Positions 43,034-49,777 of a stretch of 64,000 nt of DNA are shown here, piece by piece (positions within the stretch are counted from its first letter, which is position 1; each line of letters begins with the position of its first letter). Below the pieces are notes generated by a model that made no database searches, was not told the origin of the DNA, and was given only the letters and a program-made list of their open reading frames with translations. A program made the translations under genes and the position numbers. The stretch covers positions 130,033 through 194,032 of the forward strand of contig JACDOE010000002.1 in the NCBI GenBank assembly GCA_017656255.1, read 5' to 3'. This DNA is from Bacillaceae bacterium. GTDB lineage: Bacteria; Bacillota; Bacilli; JACDOE01.

Positions 43034-43489
43034 ATGAATGATCAGGAATTGCAGCGTCTGGTGGAACGTATTTCACGTGAATCATTCGGGAAACCGTTCA
43101 GGCACCGGGCCTATTTCAACCCGCGCCTCCGAACCACAGGAGGCAGATATCTTTTGTCAACCCATCATATCGAGATAAACCCCGGACAGTATGCTGTGTA
43201 TGGAGAAGAGGAACTGATCAATATCATCAAACATGAATTATGCCATTATCACCTGCATCTGGAGGGAAAAGGCTATCGTCACCGTGACCGGGATTTCAAG
43301 GAACTGCTACAGCAGGTGGGTGGAACACGTTATTGCAAACAGGTGAATCCGCCGAAAATTCGGGCGTTCAAATATGAACTGATCTGTACGGAATGCGGCA
43401 TGTCATATAAACGTAAAAAAAGAATGGATCCGAAGCGATACCGTTGCGGAAAGTGCAGAGGAAAACTGATGTTGAAGGAATTGAAGTAA
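43034..43489 (+). CDS. SprT-like zinc metalloprotease family protein
   Basis: A 151-residue SprT-like protein (B. subtilis YdcK). The metal-binding motif HELCHYHLH is at about residues 67-75, and a C-terminal zinc ribbon has CTECG and CGKC. The family resembles Spartan proteases, but bacterial SprT-like activity is unproven. GGGGG lies before the ATG. A hairpin without a U-run (43490-43513) follows, then tRNA-Ser. Confidence 0.9.
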
Positions 43490-43590: not shown

Positions 43591-43683
43591 GGAGAGATAC
43601 CCAAGAGGCCGAAGGGGACGGTTTGCTAAACCGTTAGTGGGCTTTGTAGCCCAGCGCGGGTTCGAATCCCGCTCTCTCCGCCA
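43591..43683 (+). tRNA. trnS-Ser: tRNA-Ser (anticodon GCU)
   Basis: A 93-nt serine tRNA with an encoded CCA end. The acceptor stem is GGAGAGA/TCTCTCC, the anticodon loop TTTGCTAAA gives GCU (codons AGC/AGU), the long variable arm is TAGTGGGCTTTGTAGCCCA, and the T-arm is GCGGGTTCGAATCCCGC. The encoded CCA is normal for Bacillales. Its 3' end is copied in each downstream tandem repeat. Confidence 0.97.
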
Positions 43684-44231
43684 TTTATTATACCTTCTAC
43701 GTATAGCATAAGATCCCAGGTAAATCATACATAATTAAGTCAATTACGCGGGATGAGAACCCGCGCAGCGGAGTTCGCAACTTAGACACAGCGGCTACGC
43801 CGAATAAGCTTCAGCGCAGCTGTGTCATCAGGGTGCTGGTGCGAAGCAGCAGTGAATCCCGCTCTCTCCGCCATTTATTATACCTTCTACGTATAGCATA
43901 AGATCCAGATAAATCATACATAATTAAGTCAATTACGCGGGATGAGAACCCGCGCAGCGGAGTTCGCAACTTAGACACAGCGACGACGCCGAATAAGCTT
44001 CAGCGCAGCTGTGTCATCCGGGTGCTGGTGCGAAGCAGCAGTGAATCCCGCTCTCTCCGCCATTTATTATATTTACTACGTGTAGCATAAGATCCGGAGT
44101 AAATCATACATAATAGGTCAATTACGCGGGATGAGAACCCGCGCAGCGGAGTTCGCAACTTAGACACAGCGGCTACGCCGAATAAGCTTCAGCGCAGCTG
44201 TGTCATCGGGGTGCTGGTGCGAAGTAGCTGT
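43664..44231 (+). repeat. Three tandem ~190-bp repeats anchored on the tRNA-Ser 3' end
   Basis: Units start at 43664, 43854 and 44043 (190, 189, 189 bp) and a fragment (GAATCCCG) starts at 44232. Each unit begins with the last 20 nt of tRNA-Ser (GAATCCCG...CCGCCA), then an AT-rich stretch with a CTACGT..TAG palindrome. Next is a T-arm-like hairpin, GCGGG-ATGAGAA-CCCGC, and finally a larger fold in which TTCGCA/TGCGAA encloses GACACAGC/GCTGTGTC. The copies differ by scattered substitutions and short indels, so the duplication is not recent. No ORF is present. Confidence 0.9.
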
Positions 44232-44271
44232 GAATCCCGTAAGTTAGTCCATATTTGGAATGTAGAAAACG

Positions 44272-44808: not shown

Positions 44809-46110
44809 ATGACCAACATCGGAAGGGAAATCCGCAACAAAAGAAAAGAACTCGGGCTGACTCAGCATGATGTAGTAGGAGATTTCATGTCCATTGCCAA
44901 ACTCAGCAATATTGAAAACGGCAAGAAAAAACCTGACCCTGAAACATGGGAATATCTTAAGCAAAAGCTGGGATTAAGTGACGAATTAGTCCATAAAAAA
45001 GAATCCATAGACAAGATTTTATTCGTGCTTGAACAGGCAGAAACCTACTATAAATCGGGAATTGTAGATAAAGCAATTGAAAAATATGAAGAGGCGATCG
45101 AACTGGCTCCCAGGTTCATGCTTTTCAACGAAACCGCCCAGGCCTACAAAGAATTAGGTTTCATTGCCATCGAAGAGAAAAATTACAAACAGGCGCTCAA
45201 TTATTTGGAAAAGGCGATCCGCTACTATGAAGATTTGCATGACCAAAAAAATGCGCTGGAGTGCCGGGCAAAAGTCGGTGTTGTTTACTTCCGCCAGGAA
45301 AAACTGGTTAAATCCCTGTCATGTTTTCAGGACATTCTCAATGACATCAAGGATGAACAGGACCTGATCGGCCCAATCTATTACAATATGGCATCGGTTT
45401 ATTACACTCTGAACAATATGGATGCCGCCAACTATGCCTGTGAAAAAGCACTGGGCCACCTGAACGAACAACAACTGGATTATCTGATCAGTACCCTTAT
45501 ATTACAGGCGATTTTGTTGAAAGAAGCAAAAATGTTCCTGCTGGCAAAAGGCAAACTGGAACAGGCCAAAGACCTTTCCATCAAACATAATAAACCCGTT
45601 TTTATGGCAAAATGCTGGCACAATCTCGGTGAAGTTGAAATGGAAATCAAGCATTTTGACAACGCTCTGAATTATTTTAACCTGTCTCTCGAAGTCAAGG
45701 AACAACTGGAAGATCAGGTCGGTATTATAAGAACCAAAGCTTTCATGGCGGAATTGCATTTAAAAATGGGACAAGTGGAAACAGCGCTGGAAATTGCCCG
45801 GGATTCGTTGAGAATGGCTCGAAACATTTATTCAAAGTCAGAAGAAATCATATCCTTGAAAGCCTTGAGCAAAATCTATCTGGAACTGGACGAAGAACCT
45901 CAATTCCTCGATGTCACATTTAAAGCGATCACACTGGCAGACGAACTCAAACTGGACATGAAAAAGATGGAACTTTATGAAAATGTGGCCAAACATTTTT
46001 ATAAAAAAGGCGATCATGACCGTTGTCTGGATATGCTGCACAAAGCTTTTCTCGTCAAATTAAAAATCGAAGAAATGGAACGACATGAATCAAGTATTGA
46101 TCCGGAATAA
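44809..46110 (+). CDS. HTH-TPR regulator of the RRNPP type (NprR/PlcR-like)
   Basis: A 433-residue protein. Residues about 3-58 are an Xre-type helix-turn-helix (IGREIRNKRKELGLTQHDVV...IENGKKKPDPETWEYL). Residues about 65-420 are roughly nine tetratricopeptide repeats (for example AIEKYEEAIELAPRF, ALNYLEKAIRYYEDL, ALNYFNLSLEVKEQL). This architecture and length fit peptide-responsive RRNPP receptors such as NprR (about 423 residues) and PlcR. A 37-codon gene with a secretion-type N-terminus lies 223 bp downstream and a secreted protease follows. The TPR domain would bind the re-imported peptide and the HTH would control target promoters. The ATG has AAAGGATGG upstream. Confidence 0.9.
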   Translation: MTNIGREIRNKRKELGLTQHDVVGDFMSIAKLSNIENGKKKPDPETWEYLKQKLGLSDELVHKKESIDKILFVLEQAETYYKSGIVDKAIEKYEEAIELAPRFMLFNETAQAYKELGFIAIEEKNYKQALNYLEKAIRYYEDLHDQKNALECRAKVGVVYFRQEKLVKSLSCFQDILNDIKDEQDLIGPIYYNMASVYYTLNNMDAANYACEKALGHLNEQQLDYLISTLILQAILLKEAKMFLLAKGKLEQAKDLSIKHNKPVFMAKCWHNLGEVEMEIKHFDNALNYFNLSLEVKEQLEDQVGIIRTKAFMAELHLKMGQVETALEIARDSLRMARNIYSKSEEIISLKALSKIYLELDEEPQFLDVTFKAITLADELKLDMKKMELYENVAKHFYKKGDHDRCLDMLHKAFLVKLKIEEMERHESSIDPE

Positions 46111-46143
46111 AATTTTATATGGCAAGATTTTATAAAAAATTTG

Positions 46144-46191
46144 AAAACAGGGTTGATTCGATACGAAAAACCGGAATCAACCCTGTTTTTT
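46144..46191 (+). terminator. Terminator of the regulator gene
   Basis: A perfect 15-bp stem (AAAACAGGGTTGATTC/GAATCAACCCTGTTTT, 16 bp with the outer pair) with a 16-nt loop is followed by TT. It separates the regulator from the peptide gene. Confidence 0.85.
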
Positions 46192-46333
46192 GCTATTTAT
46201 CGTAAAATTTTAGGACGACATTTTTATAAAAAGGAACAGATAGGGATAAAATGTAAAACAAAGAAATCAATGGGTACAACTAAATATTTCATGATCAGCA
46301 CCTTCATAATCTAACGGAAAGGAGGGAACGGGC

Positions 46334-46447
46334 ATGAAAAAAATGATCGTTGTGGCTGTTGCACTGGCTTTGTCTCTGGCTCTCGGCATGGGCGCTCCGT
46401 CTATGGATGTGGCCGGTGATCCGGTAGGTCCTTTTTCTCAGCAGTAA
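46334..46447 (+). CDS. Putative secreted signalling pre-peptide, partner of the RRNPP regulator
   Basis: A 37-residue ORF too short for normal calling. It starts MKKMIVVAVALALSLALGMG, a positively charged, strongly hydrophobic Sec-type N-terminus, and ends in the polar tail APSMDVAGDPVGPFSQQ. AAAGGAGGG is seven bases before the ATG, and a strong terminator follows, so it is an independent small gene. Position (just after an HTH-TPR regulator), size and layout match NprX, PapR and Phr precursors, whose active peptides of 5-10 residues come from the C-terminal end. The mature sequence cannot be fixed; candidates lie in GDPVGPFSQQ. Confidence 0.8.
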   Translation: MKKMIVVAVALALSLALGMGAPSMDVAGDPVGPFSQQ

Positions 46448-46505
46448 ATCTATTTAGCTTTAAAATTTTCAGATTTTACAGAAAATATGCGGGTGTTGAT
46501 TTAGG

Positions 46506-46536
46506 AAAGGCCGAAAATTTTTCGGCCTTTTTTTTA
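46506..46536 (+). terminator. Terminator of the pre-peptide gene
   Basis: AAAGGCCGAA, AATTT and TTCGGCCTTT are followed by T-rich sequence. Confidence 0.9.
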
Positions 46537-46863
46537 CGTTTTGATGTGTATAAGGAAAATGGAAGGATTCCCTGGACTTGAACTATTAAAAAAGAGTTGT
46601 CCCAACTGCCGCAAATAGGGCGGCTGTTACCTGACCTCGGTGTGTAAAAATTTTATCCACCGTTTTTCACGAAAAAAACAGGACAGGTTCGGCTCTTTTT
46701 TCGGCGAAAACCCGTATTACAACTTCATATTATTTAACGTTTCCGTGCGCTCGTACGGGAACCAAATTTCGGGGCCGAGGGGGGTGTCAACGATGTGATG
46801 TGTTGTGAGACGGAGATCGGAAAGTCAGGTGCATATTCAAAAACTTTATGGGAGGGGAAGTTC
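46537..46863. other. Upstream region of the subtilisin gene
   Basis: No gene. The region presumably contains the protease promoter and, if the quorum-sensing reading is right, a regulator site. Weak inverted repeats such as GCCGCAAATAGGGCGGC (46611-46627) and CGTGCGCTCGTACGG (46745-46759) are visible; none matches a known PlcR or NprR box. The protease frame is open from 46795, but the supported start is 46864. Confidence 0.45.
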
Positions 46864-48594
46864 ATGTTAAAAGGGAAAAGAATGTTACTGTCCATTCTGT
46901 CTGCTGCGCTGATTCTCTCACCGGTTTATGGAAGTGCACAGGGGAAATCGGCACACCAGCCGGACAAGCCCGAACCGGTCAAACAAGAAAAACCTGCTGC
47001 CATGGTGAATGAAAACGGAAACAAGCTTTTTGACAATCTGGAGAAGAAGCTCCAGGAAGTCGGCAAACAGGACAAGCTTCCCGTTATCATTCAGTTTGAC
47101 GGCAGCAGGGTAAAAGGTAACGCAGAACTGGCATTACAAGAAAAAGTAGGAAAATTCTCAACCAAATATAAATATAGCATTATTGATGGGATCGCCGCAA
47201 CCATGACAAGGGAACAAATTGAAAAACTGGATCGGATCCCTTTTGTCAAACAGGTGGAATATGATGAACAAGTGCAGGCCTTTATGGGAACAGCTGATTA
47301 CTGGTTCGGGACTGAAAAAGCCCGTACCGACTTTTCCGTTGACGGAGATGGAGACGGGAATCCGAACTCCTACTCAAAAGATGATATGGTCATTGCCGTC
47401 ATTGATACGGGAATTGATCCCAACCATGTTGATCTGGATGAAGGAAAAATTATCGGATGGAAGGATTACGTCAATGGACGCACCAGTCCTTATGACGATC
47501 AGGGTCATGGTACCCATGTGGCAAGCATCGCCGCGGGTGAAGGAGAAGGAAACAGTAATTATCACGGCGTAGCTCCGGCAGCGGCCCTGGTCGGCGTCAA
47601 AGTGCTTGATGGGAACGGAAGCGGCTCCATGAGTGATGTGACCGCCGGGATTGACTGGGCGGTTCAAAATAAAGACGTTTATGGCATCGAAGTCTTAAAT
47701 CTCAGCCTTGGGACAAGCTCGAGTTCCGATGGAACCGACTCGACCTCACAGGCGGTCAACAATGCCGTCGATGCCGGACTGGTGGTTACCGTCGCTGCAG
47801 GGAACAGTGGACCGGCCACTTACACAGTGGGATCGCCAGCAGCGGCTGACAAGGCCCTGACCGTGGGTGCGGCTGCCGATCCGGGTGAAAACGGATTTTT
47901 CCTGGCCTACTTCTCCAGCCGCGGACCGACTGCTGATGATCGGATCAAGCCTGATATCGTAGCACCCGGTTACAATATTACCGCCGCACAGGCCGGGACC
48001 ACCTCAAGTTACGTCACTTACAGCGGTACCAGTATGGCCACACCGTTTACGGCCGGTACGGTTGCGCTGATTCTGGATGCGAACCCGTCTTTAAGTCCTG
48101 CTCAGGTTAAAAATCACCTTTACAGCACGGCTCATGACTGGGGGCCGGCAGGCAAAGACATTGACTATGGTAATGGCATGCTGGATGGTTACGAAGCAAT
48201 TCGAAGTGCCGGTGGATTTTCCGGAACCGGTATTGAGCTCCCCAATCATTTTTATGAGGCTGATTCACTCCCCGGTTCCGGCTACAGCGACTGGTATGAT
48301 ATCGAAGTGACGGACAGCAGCGACCCCATTGCCGTCACCCTGATCATGCCGGACTGGACCTCGAGCTGGTTCGGATGGTCAACCAGCCCCGATTTTGACA
48401 TCTATCTGTATGATCCGGCCGGAAACGTGGTCGCTCAGTCTGAAGATACCAAACGTCAGGAGACGATTTCCTTCAATCCGTCTACAACAGGTACCTACAG
48501 GCTAGAAGTTTATGCTTACAGTGACAGCGGTGACTATTTCTTTGATCTGAGTGCCGGGGCAAATTCGTTAACACAGACCGCAGACAACCAGTAA
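46864..48594 (+). CDS. Secreted subtilisin-like serine protease (S8) with PPC domain
   Basis: A 576-residue secreted protease. It has a signal peptide (residues about 1-27), an I9-type inhibitor propeptide (about 60-135; LPVIIQFDGSRVKG, DGIAATMTREQIEKL) and a catalytic domain (about 145-455). The triad is Asp in IAVIDTGID, His in GHGTHVASIAAG and Ser in SGTSMATPFTAG, with the oxyanion Asn in AAGNSG. The C-terminus (about 465-576) is a beta-sandwich pre-peptidase-type domain (DFDIYLYDPAGN...TGTYRLEVYAY). GGGAGGGG precedes the ATG at 46864. It is the first large gene after the regulator-peptide pair and a likely target of it. Confidence 0.93.
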   Translation: MLKGKRMLLSILSAALILSPVYGSAQGKSAHQPDKPEPVKQEKPAAMVNENGNKLFDNLEKKLQEVGKQDKLPVIIQFDGSRVKGNAELALQEKVGKFSTKYKYSIIDGIAATMTREQIEKLDRIPFVKQVEYDEQVQAFMGTADYWFGTEKARTDFSVDGDGDGNPNSYSKDDMVIAVIDTGIDPNHVDLDEGKIIGWKDYVNGRTSPYDDQGHGTHVASIAAGEGEGNSNYHGVAPAAALVGVKVLDGNGSGSMSDVTAGIDWAVQNKDVYGIEVLNLSLGTSSSSDGTDSTSQAVNNAVDAGLVVTVAAGNSGPATYTVGSPAAADKALTVGAAADPGENGFFLAYFSSRGPTADDRIKPDIVAPGYNITAAQAGTTSSYVTYSGTSMATPFTAGTVALILDANPSLSPAQVKNHLYSTAHDWGPAGKDIDYGNGMLDGYEAIRSAGGFSGTGIELPNHFYEADSLPGSGYSDWYDIEVTDSSDPIAVTLIMPDWTSSWFGWSTSPDFDIYLYDPAGNVVAQSEDTKRQETISFNPSTTGTYRLEVYAYSDSGDYFFDLSAGANSLTQTADNQ

Positions 48595-48751: not shown

Positions 48752-49777
48752 ATGAAACGAAAATCCGGATCTGAGCGACTGGATGAATTCGGTTTAATCC
48801 GTTTTCTGACAGAAAGACAGCCTGACAACCGTTCGCCATCAGGCGTCACCATCGGACCCGGTGACGATGCAGCTGTTGTCAAAGTCACGGATGGGATGGA
48901 ACTGGTGGTGAGTTGTGATACGATGGTAGAACATGTTCATTTTAAAAAAGAAACCCTGTCCTGCGAAGATATCGGGTTTAAGGCGCTGGCCGCCAATATC
49001 AGCGATATTGCAGCCATGGGCGGTATTCCCCGCTTTTTCCTGGTGTCGCTGGGCGTGTCCGCTGACTGGTCGGATGACCAGTTGAAAGCGATTTATAACG
49101 GCATGTATGAACTGGCTGATTCTCACAGGATGACCCTGATCGGCGGTGATACGGTTTCAGCCGGACAGCTGGTTCTGACCATTACGGTCCTCGGAGAAGT
49201 AGAAAAAGGGAAAGCCTTGCGTCGATCCGATGCCAGACCGGGGGACCGGGTGTTTGTGACCGGCTCGCTGGGTGGGGCCTCCGCCGGTCTCGATTTTCTT
49301 CTGAAAAACGGAAAAGATCAAGTGGTTCAAAAAATGAGTCGTCTGGTAGAAGCCCATCAACGGCCTGTGCCGCAGGTGAAGGCAGGCAGGTTGCTGAATC
49401 AGGCCGGATTTGTCCATGCTTTGAATGATATTAGCGACGGTCTGGCCAGTGAAGCCTGGGAGATTGCAGAGTCAAGCGACGTCCGGATTGTGCTGGATCC
49501 CGGGAACATCCCGGTATTCCCCGGAGTAGAGGCTTATGCCAGGGAGCAGAACATGGACTATATGGACTGGATCTGGTACGGCGGGGAAGAATTTCAGCTG
49601 ATCGGAACAGTACCTGCCACTCAGGAAAAGCAGTTAAAATCTTTATTTGATCAAAACGGGCTTCCAATATATTTTATCGGCCGGGTGAAATCGGGAGAAA
49701 CTGCGGTCGTATTGGCCGGGACCGGAAAGGATGAGCATCCGCTTCCCCGGAAAGGTTACAATCATTTCAGAGGTTGA
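48752..49777 (+). CDS. thiL: Thiamine-monophosphate kinase
   Basis: A 341-residue ATP-dependent kinase making thiamine diphosphate from thiamine monophosphate. Motifs: GPGDDAAVV (metal/ATP site, about residue 36), SCDTMVEHVHF, AANISDIAAMGG, TLIGGDTV and NDISDGLASEAWEIA. The length is normal. GGGAG lies before the ATG. It opens the ydi-type operon thiL-tsaE-tsaB-rimI-tsaD, in the B. subtilis order. Confidence 0.95.
   Translation: MKRKSGSERLDEFGLIRFLTERQPDNRSPSGVTIGPGDDAAVVKVTDGMELVVSCDTMVEHVHFKKETLSCEDIGFKALAANISDIAAMGGIPRFFLVSLGVSADWSDDQLKAIYNGMYELADSHRMTLIGGDTVSAGQLVLTITVLGEVEKGKALRRSDARPGDRVFVTGSLGGASAGLDFLLKNGKDQVVQKMSRLVEAHQRPVPQVKAGRLLNQAGFVHALNDISDGLASEAWEIAESSDVRIVLDPGNIPVFPGVEAYAREQNMDYMDWIWYGGEEFQLIGTVPATQEKQLKSLFDQNGLPIYFIGRVKSGETAVVLAGTGKDEHPLPRKGYNHFRG

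Follow-up and report, generated by a model that had tools for sequence, protein, structure and literature searches.

The 64 kb of Bacillaceae bacterium DNA analysed here (GenBank assembly GCA_017656255.1, contig JACDOE010000002.1; hereafter the window) contain, at positions 44809-48594, three successive genes encoding a helix-turn-helix/tetratricopeptide repeat (HTH-TPR) regulator, a 37-amino-acid (aa) pre-peptide and a secreted subtilase. We consider it likely that this trio is a self-contained peptide quorum-sensing system of the RRNPP type, that has a peptide code and an operator of its own and drives the production of secreted proteases. This reading builds on the gene architecture, on the conservation of the trio, on the similarity of the peptide tails and on the conservation and placement of a DNA box, and every feature of RRNPP(A) systems that can be tested from sequence or from a model was found in the trio. 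The original prediction of a candidate peptide quorum-sensing module is thus supported, the order of the genes being beyond chance and recurring in three other genomes. Indeed, as distant relatives have the same trio and share the DNA box, the three genes very probably form a previously unnamed small cell-to-cell signalling system controlling shared protein digestion.

Architecture of the module

The regulator gene (44809-46110; the features of the module lie on the forward strand unless stated otherwise) encodes a protein of 433 aa, in which Pfam models detect an HTH (HTH_31, 8e-7; match at residues 4-61, the HTH being assigned to residues 4-57) and TPRs (TPR_12, 1.9e-23), the TPR superhelix spanning residues 64-428. 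The AlphaFold2 model built from a three-sequence alignment (mean predicted local distance difference test score 90.8) displays the HTH joined by a linker to a long TPR superhelix, an alpha-solenoid of paired helices as in RRNPP(A) receptors (TPR superhelix, about 250-500 aa). The overall fold also resembles that of solved RRNPP receptors: Foldseek comparisons of the model gave template-modelling scores (TM-scores) of 0.62/0.72 with RapI, 0.55/0.65 with Rap pLS20 and 0.55/0.65 with NprR, RapI (4i1a) being the best RRNPP match listed by TM-score. The receptor architecture initially read from the letters is thereby borne out by Pfam, AlphaFold2 and Foldseek, to which are added relatives of the regulator with the same gene neighbours. 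The window's own genome contains one strong copy of this regulator.

Since the regulator gene has its own strong Rho-independent terminator (46143-46190; 17-bp stem then T-run, folding at -24.5 kcal/mol), the peptide gene is probably monocistronic in the window. This second gene (46334-46447) encodes the 37-aa product MKKMIVVAVALALSLALGMGAPSMDVAGDPVGPFSQQ and displays a ribosome-binding site (AAGGAGGG, 46319-46326), a secretion-type N-terminus rich in lysine and hydrophobic residues (MKKMIVVAVALALSLALGMG) and a Rho-independent terminator (46503-46533, -17 kcal/mol), all as originally described. RRNPP(A) systems are likewise characterized by an adjacent pro-peptide gene of 10-100 aa with a ribosome-binding site and a Sec-type N-terminus, the latter being assigned by composition here and in the other small open reading frames (ORFs) considered below. 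From the aligned tails, the mature signal is predicted to be GDPVGPFSQQ (46415-46444), with cleavage after ...DVA.

The third gene (46864-48594) encodes a secreted subtilase (S8) of 576 aa with a signal-type N-terminus, an I9-like propeptide, a Peptidase_S8 domain (1.4e-61) and a C-terminal PPC domain, its homologues being 66-68% identical. The secreted subtilisin had been correctly recognized and located, except for its start, which is most likely the ATG at 46864 since homologues align from this codon; the alternative GTG at 46795 was rejected on account of this alignment.

Conservation of the trio and of the peptide tail

Three further Bacilli genomes have the order regulator-peptide-protease, at chromosomal sites of at least two kinds that differ from that of the window, and the regulators with the same peptide and protease neighbours are 47-54% identical. 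A search of 399 Bacilli genomes returned one close relative of the regulator (54% identity over 245 aa), in a genome from a third family (G022). A single-sequence scan of genome contigs with the regulator found no relative, and a two-sequence profile then detected those of an Alkalihalobacillus macyae metagenome-assembled genome (G399, locus L039) and of Rossellomorea vietnamensis (L040). Order- and family-level searches around the window's genome (G000) and G022 covered one genome each, and the only other genome covered in the family of G399, its close relative G400, displays the full trio. The five regulators form a monophyletic clade (support 100/100). The original prediction had made its case depend on a small ORF conserved beside homologous regulators: all five clade members possess an intact one of signal type, and a subtilase comes next in four of them.

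In G399, the regulator and protease are, respectively, 47% and 66% identical to those of the window, and a 40-aa pre-peptide (MKKLLGSGAIILMLLAGFSTNVFADDPPGPVMPSSQHTDL) overlaps the regulator stop; in G399 as in G400, a ppi lipoprotein gene lies upstream of the trio. In G022, the trio is located between the bio operon and the remnant of a non-ribosomal peptide synthetase (NRPS) gene, with a 37-aa pre-peptide (MKRLLIAILIIAAIGFGASAVYAGDDVGYSVTVDQRS) and the subtilase downstream. The Rossellomorea regulator is 34% identical to that of the window; a 48-aa ORF (ribosome-binding site GGGGGAAGG, end ...SADDDVGAFSEQISEQNLI) is divergent from it, and no protease gene was found in the flank examined. More distant HTH-TPR matches in Bacilli (about 25% identity) often have a pre-peptide directly downstream, placing the regulator-peptide pair within the general RRNPP pattern.

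The tails of these precursors can be aligned (GDPVGPFSQQ in the window, DDPPGPVMP.., GDDVGYS.. and DDDVGAFSEQ) and have a common start, A-[GD]-D-[PD]-[VP]-G. DDDVGAFSEQ, from Rossellomorea, is identical to GDPVGPFSQQ at six of 10 positions, a similarity reached by none of 43,389 background 10-mers (short ORFs near more distant HTH-TPR genes). Between G399 and G400, seven codons of the precursor differ (four silent, three conservative); DDPPGPVMP, which directly follows the alanine of the predicted cleavage site, is unchanged, whereas later residues vary (S/T, Q/E), suggesting that the informative part of the peptide lies immediately past the cleavage. This calls for one change to the original prediction: since the conserved block of the tail in these two genomes follows the predicted cleavage site, C-terminal 5-7-mers are not the sole synthetic candidates, and the best ones are the whole GDPVGPFSQQ and N-anchored sub-peptides.

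A shared AT-rich box as candidate operator

The alignment of box copies yields the bipartite consensus GTAAAATTTT-N8-ATTTTA. All four TAAAATTTT/AAAATTTTA sites of the window sit in the module (46108, 46203, 46461 and 46647), either in its non-coding parts or at the regulator stop (p 0.0005, dinucleotide shuffles). The first copy (TAAAATTTTA, 46108-46117, no strand assigned) overlaps the regulator stop, the second (CGTAAAATTTTAGGACGACATTTTTATA, 46201-46228) is upstream of the peptide gene, the third (TAAAATTTT, 46461-46469) lies just past the peptide stop, as it does in G399 and G400, and the fourth (GTAAAAATTTTATCCACCGTTTTTCACGAAAAAAACAGGACAGG, 46644-46690), upstream of the protease gene, aligns without gaps to a block of about 50 bp from G399 and G400 (p about 0.003). 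This block (AATGTAAAATTTTCAGCCTTGAATTTTATCGAAAAAAATCGATGGGAAAA), ahead of the protease gene, is invariant between these two genomes, and TTTAAAATTTTACT is kept past the peptide stop; the invariance of about 50 non-coding base pairs at 87% overall identity points to purifying selection. Moreover, all three lineages have GTAAAA(A)TTTT between the peptide and protease genes (product of single chances about 6e-6, calculated post hoc).

Across the 3.4-Mb genome to which the window belongs, the exact CGTAAAATTTTA is found at six places: before the pre-peptide gene (copy 2), twice before hemL on contig C7, twice before a subtilase gene on contig C8, and once within a transporter-like ORF. When the 20 S8 genes of G000, G022 and G399 are considered together, four have a box within 500 bp upstream, namely the three linked ones and that of C8. 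This second, unlinked secreted subtilase (L084 1132-2358; about 134.8-136.1 kb of C8), with exact CGTAAAATTTTA about 105 and 188 bp upstream of its gene, is a candidate second target of the regulator. Two perfect boxes (TAAAATTTTATCGTAAAATTTTAC, CCGTAAAATTTTACG) were also observed in the 345-bp gap before hemL (L069 3435-3600; G000:C7:19938-20088), a gap in which no pre-peptide ORF was found. In G022, a box doublet (AAAATTTTACTTCTAAAATTTTAC; L037 8940-8980, reverse strand) precedes an NRPS-like gene that is truncated and lies immediately upstream of the decayed module; this gene might be a former target, by analogy with the lipopeptide under NprR control. The output of a sigma-70 promoter scan did not exceed that of shuffles, and no promoters were therefore assigned.

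Alternative explanations

Several observations weigh against the quorum-sensing reading. By E-value, Foldseek ranks generic TPR proteins (LGN, OGT) above Rap and NprR, and general eukaryotic TPR proteins outscore RRNPP members in sequence searches too. The fold alone would be no proof of a peptide receptor, and the argument rests on gene context and peptide conservation. As for the peptide, the -3 residue of the presumed cleavage site in the window is an aspartate, which is poor or unusual, the NCBIfam Phr_nterm model stays below threshold (12 bits for a cut-off of 25), and so do the AimP and LPAM family models on the peptides (AimP_fam on the G022 peptide: 13 of 35 bits). The box was first noticed by eye, and the stretches preceding the linked and C8 subtilase genes show no significant pairwise alignment, the core of the box being all that they share. 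Furthermore, GTAAAATTTTA is not enriched genome-wide compared with a reversed control (15 versus 13), which is expected for a small regulon, yet also calls for caution. Finally, the G022 copies of the regulator and protease are decayed: in the former, the N-terminus and about 120 internal residues are missing and the frame changes, and the latter is about 125 residues short. The G022 peptide gene is intact despite these large deletions (L037 4616-7320), which possibly reflects a signal kept while the response was lost, or an assembly fault; in the first case, this half-lost copy could be a signal outliving its response.

Among rival explanations, the one that survives best, although we regard it as unlikely, accepts regulator and peptide as a real pair and attributes the box to another factor, such as CodY or a repressor of unknown identity, with a protease that is just co-located or is regulated indirectly. 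Action on neighbouring genes is not universal among RRNPP receptors, nprR is itself under CodY (PMC4147580), and there is a resemblance between AT-rich boxes and parts of CodY sites, the window having 15 CodY-like matches versus 5.4 in shuffles. However, the peptide-protease region of G399 and the C7 region contain perfect boxes and no CodY-motif match at up to four mismatches; CodY was rejected as the owner of the box on account of such conserved-position boxes without CodY matches. Among the 20 S8 genes considered, the box is upstream of the regulator-linked ones plus one only, and in Rossellomorea, whose recognition helix differs (SVSNLSN versus SIAKLSN/SISKLSN), the region upstream of the regulator is devoid of it.

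It is distinctly less probable that the 37-aa product is secreted to inhibit or chaperone the adjoining subtilase or to serve as its substrate, or is a small bacteriocin, rather than a signal. Small inhibitors are common among subtilases, and the small gene adjoins the protease gene whenever the trio is complete. By contrast, Rossellomorea keeps the regulator and a matching tail with no protease gene in the flank examined, the more distant HTH-TPR regulators often have downstream pre-peptides as well, and the tail consists of just 10-16 residues directly after the signal segment, like RRNPP pro-peptides (PMC10075063).

That the trio is a decaying genomic island, i.e. a chance mix of regulator, spurious small ORF and protease with no present function, would fit the damaged copy of G022 and the position of the window copy behind a tRNA-Ser 3' end repeated three times in tandem, but is hardly credible, as none of the three genes is broken in the window, G399 or G400, and the non-coding block described above is invariant. 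A phage or plasmid origin was also rejected: the regulator has no match in phage records or in IMG/VR, but just a distant one to RstA on a C. difficile plasmid. Similarly, neither a phage location nor an AimP-family peptide, the marks of Arbitrium AimR-AimP, was found.

Proposed mechanism

For the quorum-sensing reading, the following sequence of events can be proposed. Sec would export the 37-aa precursor, and extracellular trimming would leave a short peptide around GDPVGPFSQQ, which would be re-imported by the oligopeptide permease Opp and bind the TPR groove of the regulator, a step to which tail conservation lends indirect support. The peptide-bound regulator may then act at GTAAAATTTT-N8-ATTTTA before the peptide gene, as a feedback, and before the linked and C8 subtilase genes; the footprint-like conservation and the placement of the box are consistent with such an action. 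After NprR and PlcR, our guess leans towards activation rather than repression. Proteases, as a public good, would thereby be made at high cell density.

More tentatively, the trio could be a transferable cassette with its own operator code, moving between chromosomal sites (here behind the tRNA-Ser end) and recruiting unlinked genes that acquire the box, such as the second subtilase, hemL and, in G022, the NRPS promoter; the linked subtilase would also mature the peptide, creating an extracellular positive feedback. There are parallels for the trimming step proposed above: secreted proteases, subtilases among them, mature Phr pro-peptides (PMC11343458), and the PlcR-regulated protease NprB matures PapR (PMC4147580).

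Comparison with known systems

The closeness to NprR-NprX and PlcR-PapR put forward by the original prediction holds as a functional analogy; on the criteria examined, the regulator is no orthologue of NprR, and the box differs from that of PlcR. In NprR-NprX of the Bacillus cereus group, a pre-peptide gene lies directly downstream of the HTH-TPR receptor gene, and the pair controls the adjoining extracellular protease gene nprA (PMC4147580). The window module shares this layout, and its regulator matches NprR by fold (5dbk) and by sequence profile (4gpk). However, the protease is an S8 subtilase versus a neutral protease, the neighbour is not nprA, and the peptide GDPVGPFSQQ is not similar to SKPDIVG. 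NprR is absent from the single-sequence phmmer list of the regulator at E<=0.001 and matches the three-relative profile weakly (about 1e-5, 27 bits).

Like PlcR-PapR, also from the Bacillus cereus group, the module combines a one-component HTH-TPR receptor, a pre-peptide, and a conserved candidate operator box in front of both the peptide gene and secreted enzyme genes. It is set apart by the comparison of boxes, no scan for the PlcR box having been made (GTAAAATTTT-N8-ATTTTA versus TATGNANNNNANCATA), by a small candidate regulon (module, second subtilase and hemL) versus a pleiotropic one, and by a peptide unrelated in sequence to ADLPFEF. In AloR-AloP of Paenibacillaceae, a further functional analogue, the gene that comes straight after the HTH receptor encodes a secreted pro-peptide, which is trimmed to about 6 aa or more (PMC7425212). 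The window pair has this arrangement as well, but AloR-AloP has no described link to a subtilase (PMC7425212) and many paralogues per genome, versus one strong copy here. Lastly, the Rap-Phr systems of Bacillus share the TPR superhelix and provide the best RRNPP fold match; unlike Rap, a response-regulator phosphatase with no DNA-binding HTH, the window regulator contains HTH_31 and is accompanied by a conserved DNA box, and its pro-peptide falls below the threshold of the Phr-type model.

Full-text literature searches, with supplementary tables unchecked, found no description of a regulator-peptide-subtilase trio of this sequence. The clade could be among the 21 novel candidate subfamilies reported by RRNPP_detector (PMC10075063). 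What appears new here is the candidate operator and, on the side of the peptide, the code [GD]D[PD][VP]G... The RRNPP family would gain a peptide-receptor pair whose peptide code is independent and for which there is a concrete candidate operator sequence. To our knowledge, few receptor-operator pairs have been defined in this family. The box sharpens the prediction of a working pair and of the genes under its control. If this holds, the module would be a compact natural switch for density-dependent subtilase secretion, with a bearing on the evolution of public goods and on enzyme production.

Flanking sequences and other receptor-peptide pairs

The flanks of the module are as first described: an SprT family gene (43034-43489, 3e-66) and a tRNA-Ser gene (43591-43683) on one side, thiL (at 48752, 1e-100) on the other, where tsaE was identified in addition. 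Between tRNA-Ser and the module, positions 43664-44239 contain a 189-bp unit three times, head to tail (95% match). Every unit includes a copy of the tRNA-Ser 3' end (GAATCCCGCTCTCTCCGCCA), and the repeats look like tandem attachment-site scars.

Two further observations concern HTH-TPR genes of other genomes. In G017, the pre-peptide downstream of such a gene (L004 2795-3016) contains four QSEPGGL repeats, i.e. a multi-copy pheromone precursor. In family f36 (L021, L022, L025 and L029), HTH-TPR genes are followed by pre-peptides with a D[DQ]PPIW tail (ADDPPIW..., ADQPPIWGKH), which, judging from these tails, is a separate expanded family of pairs.

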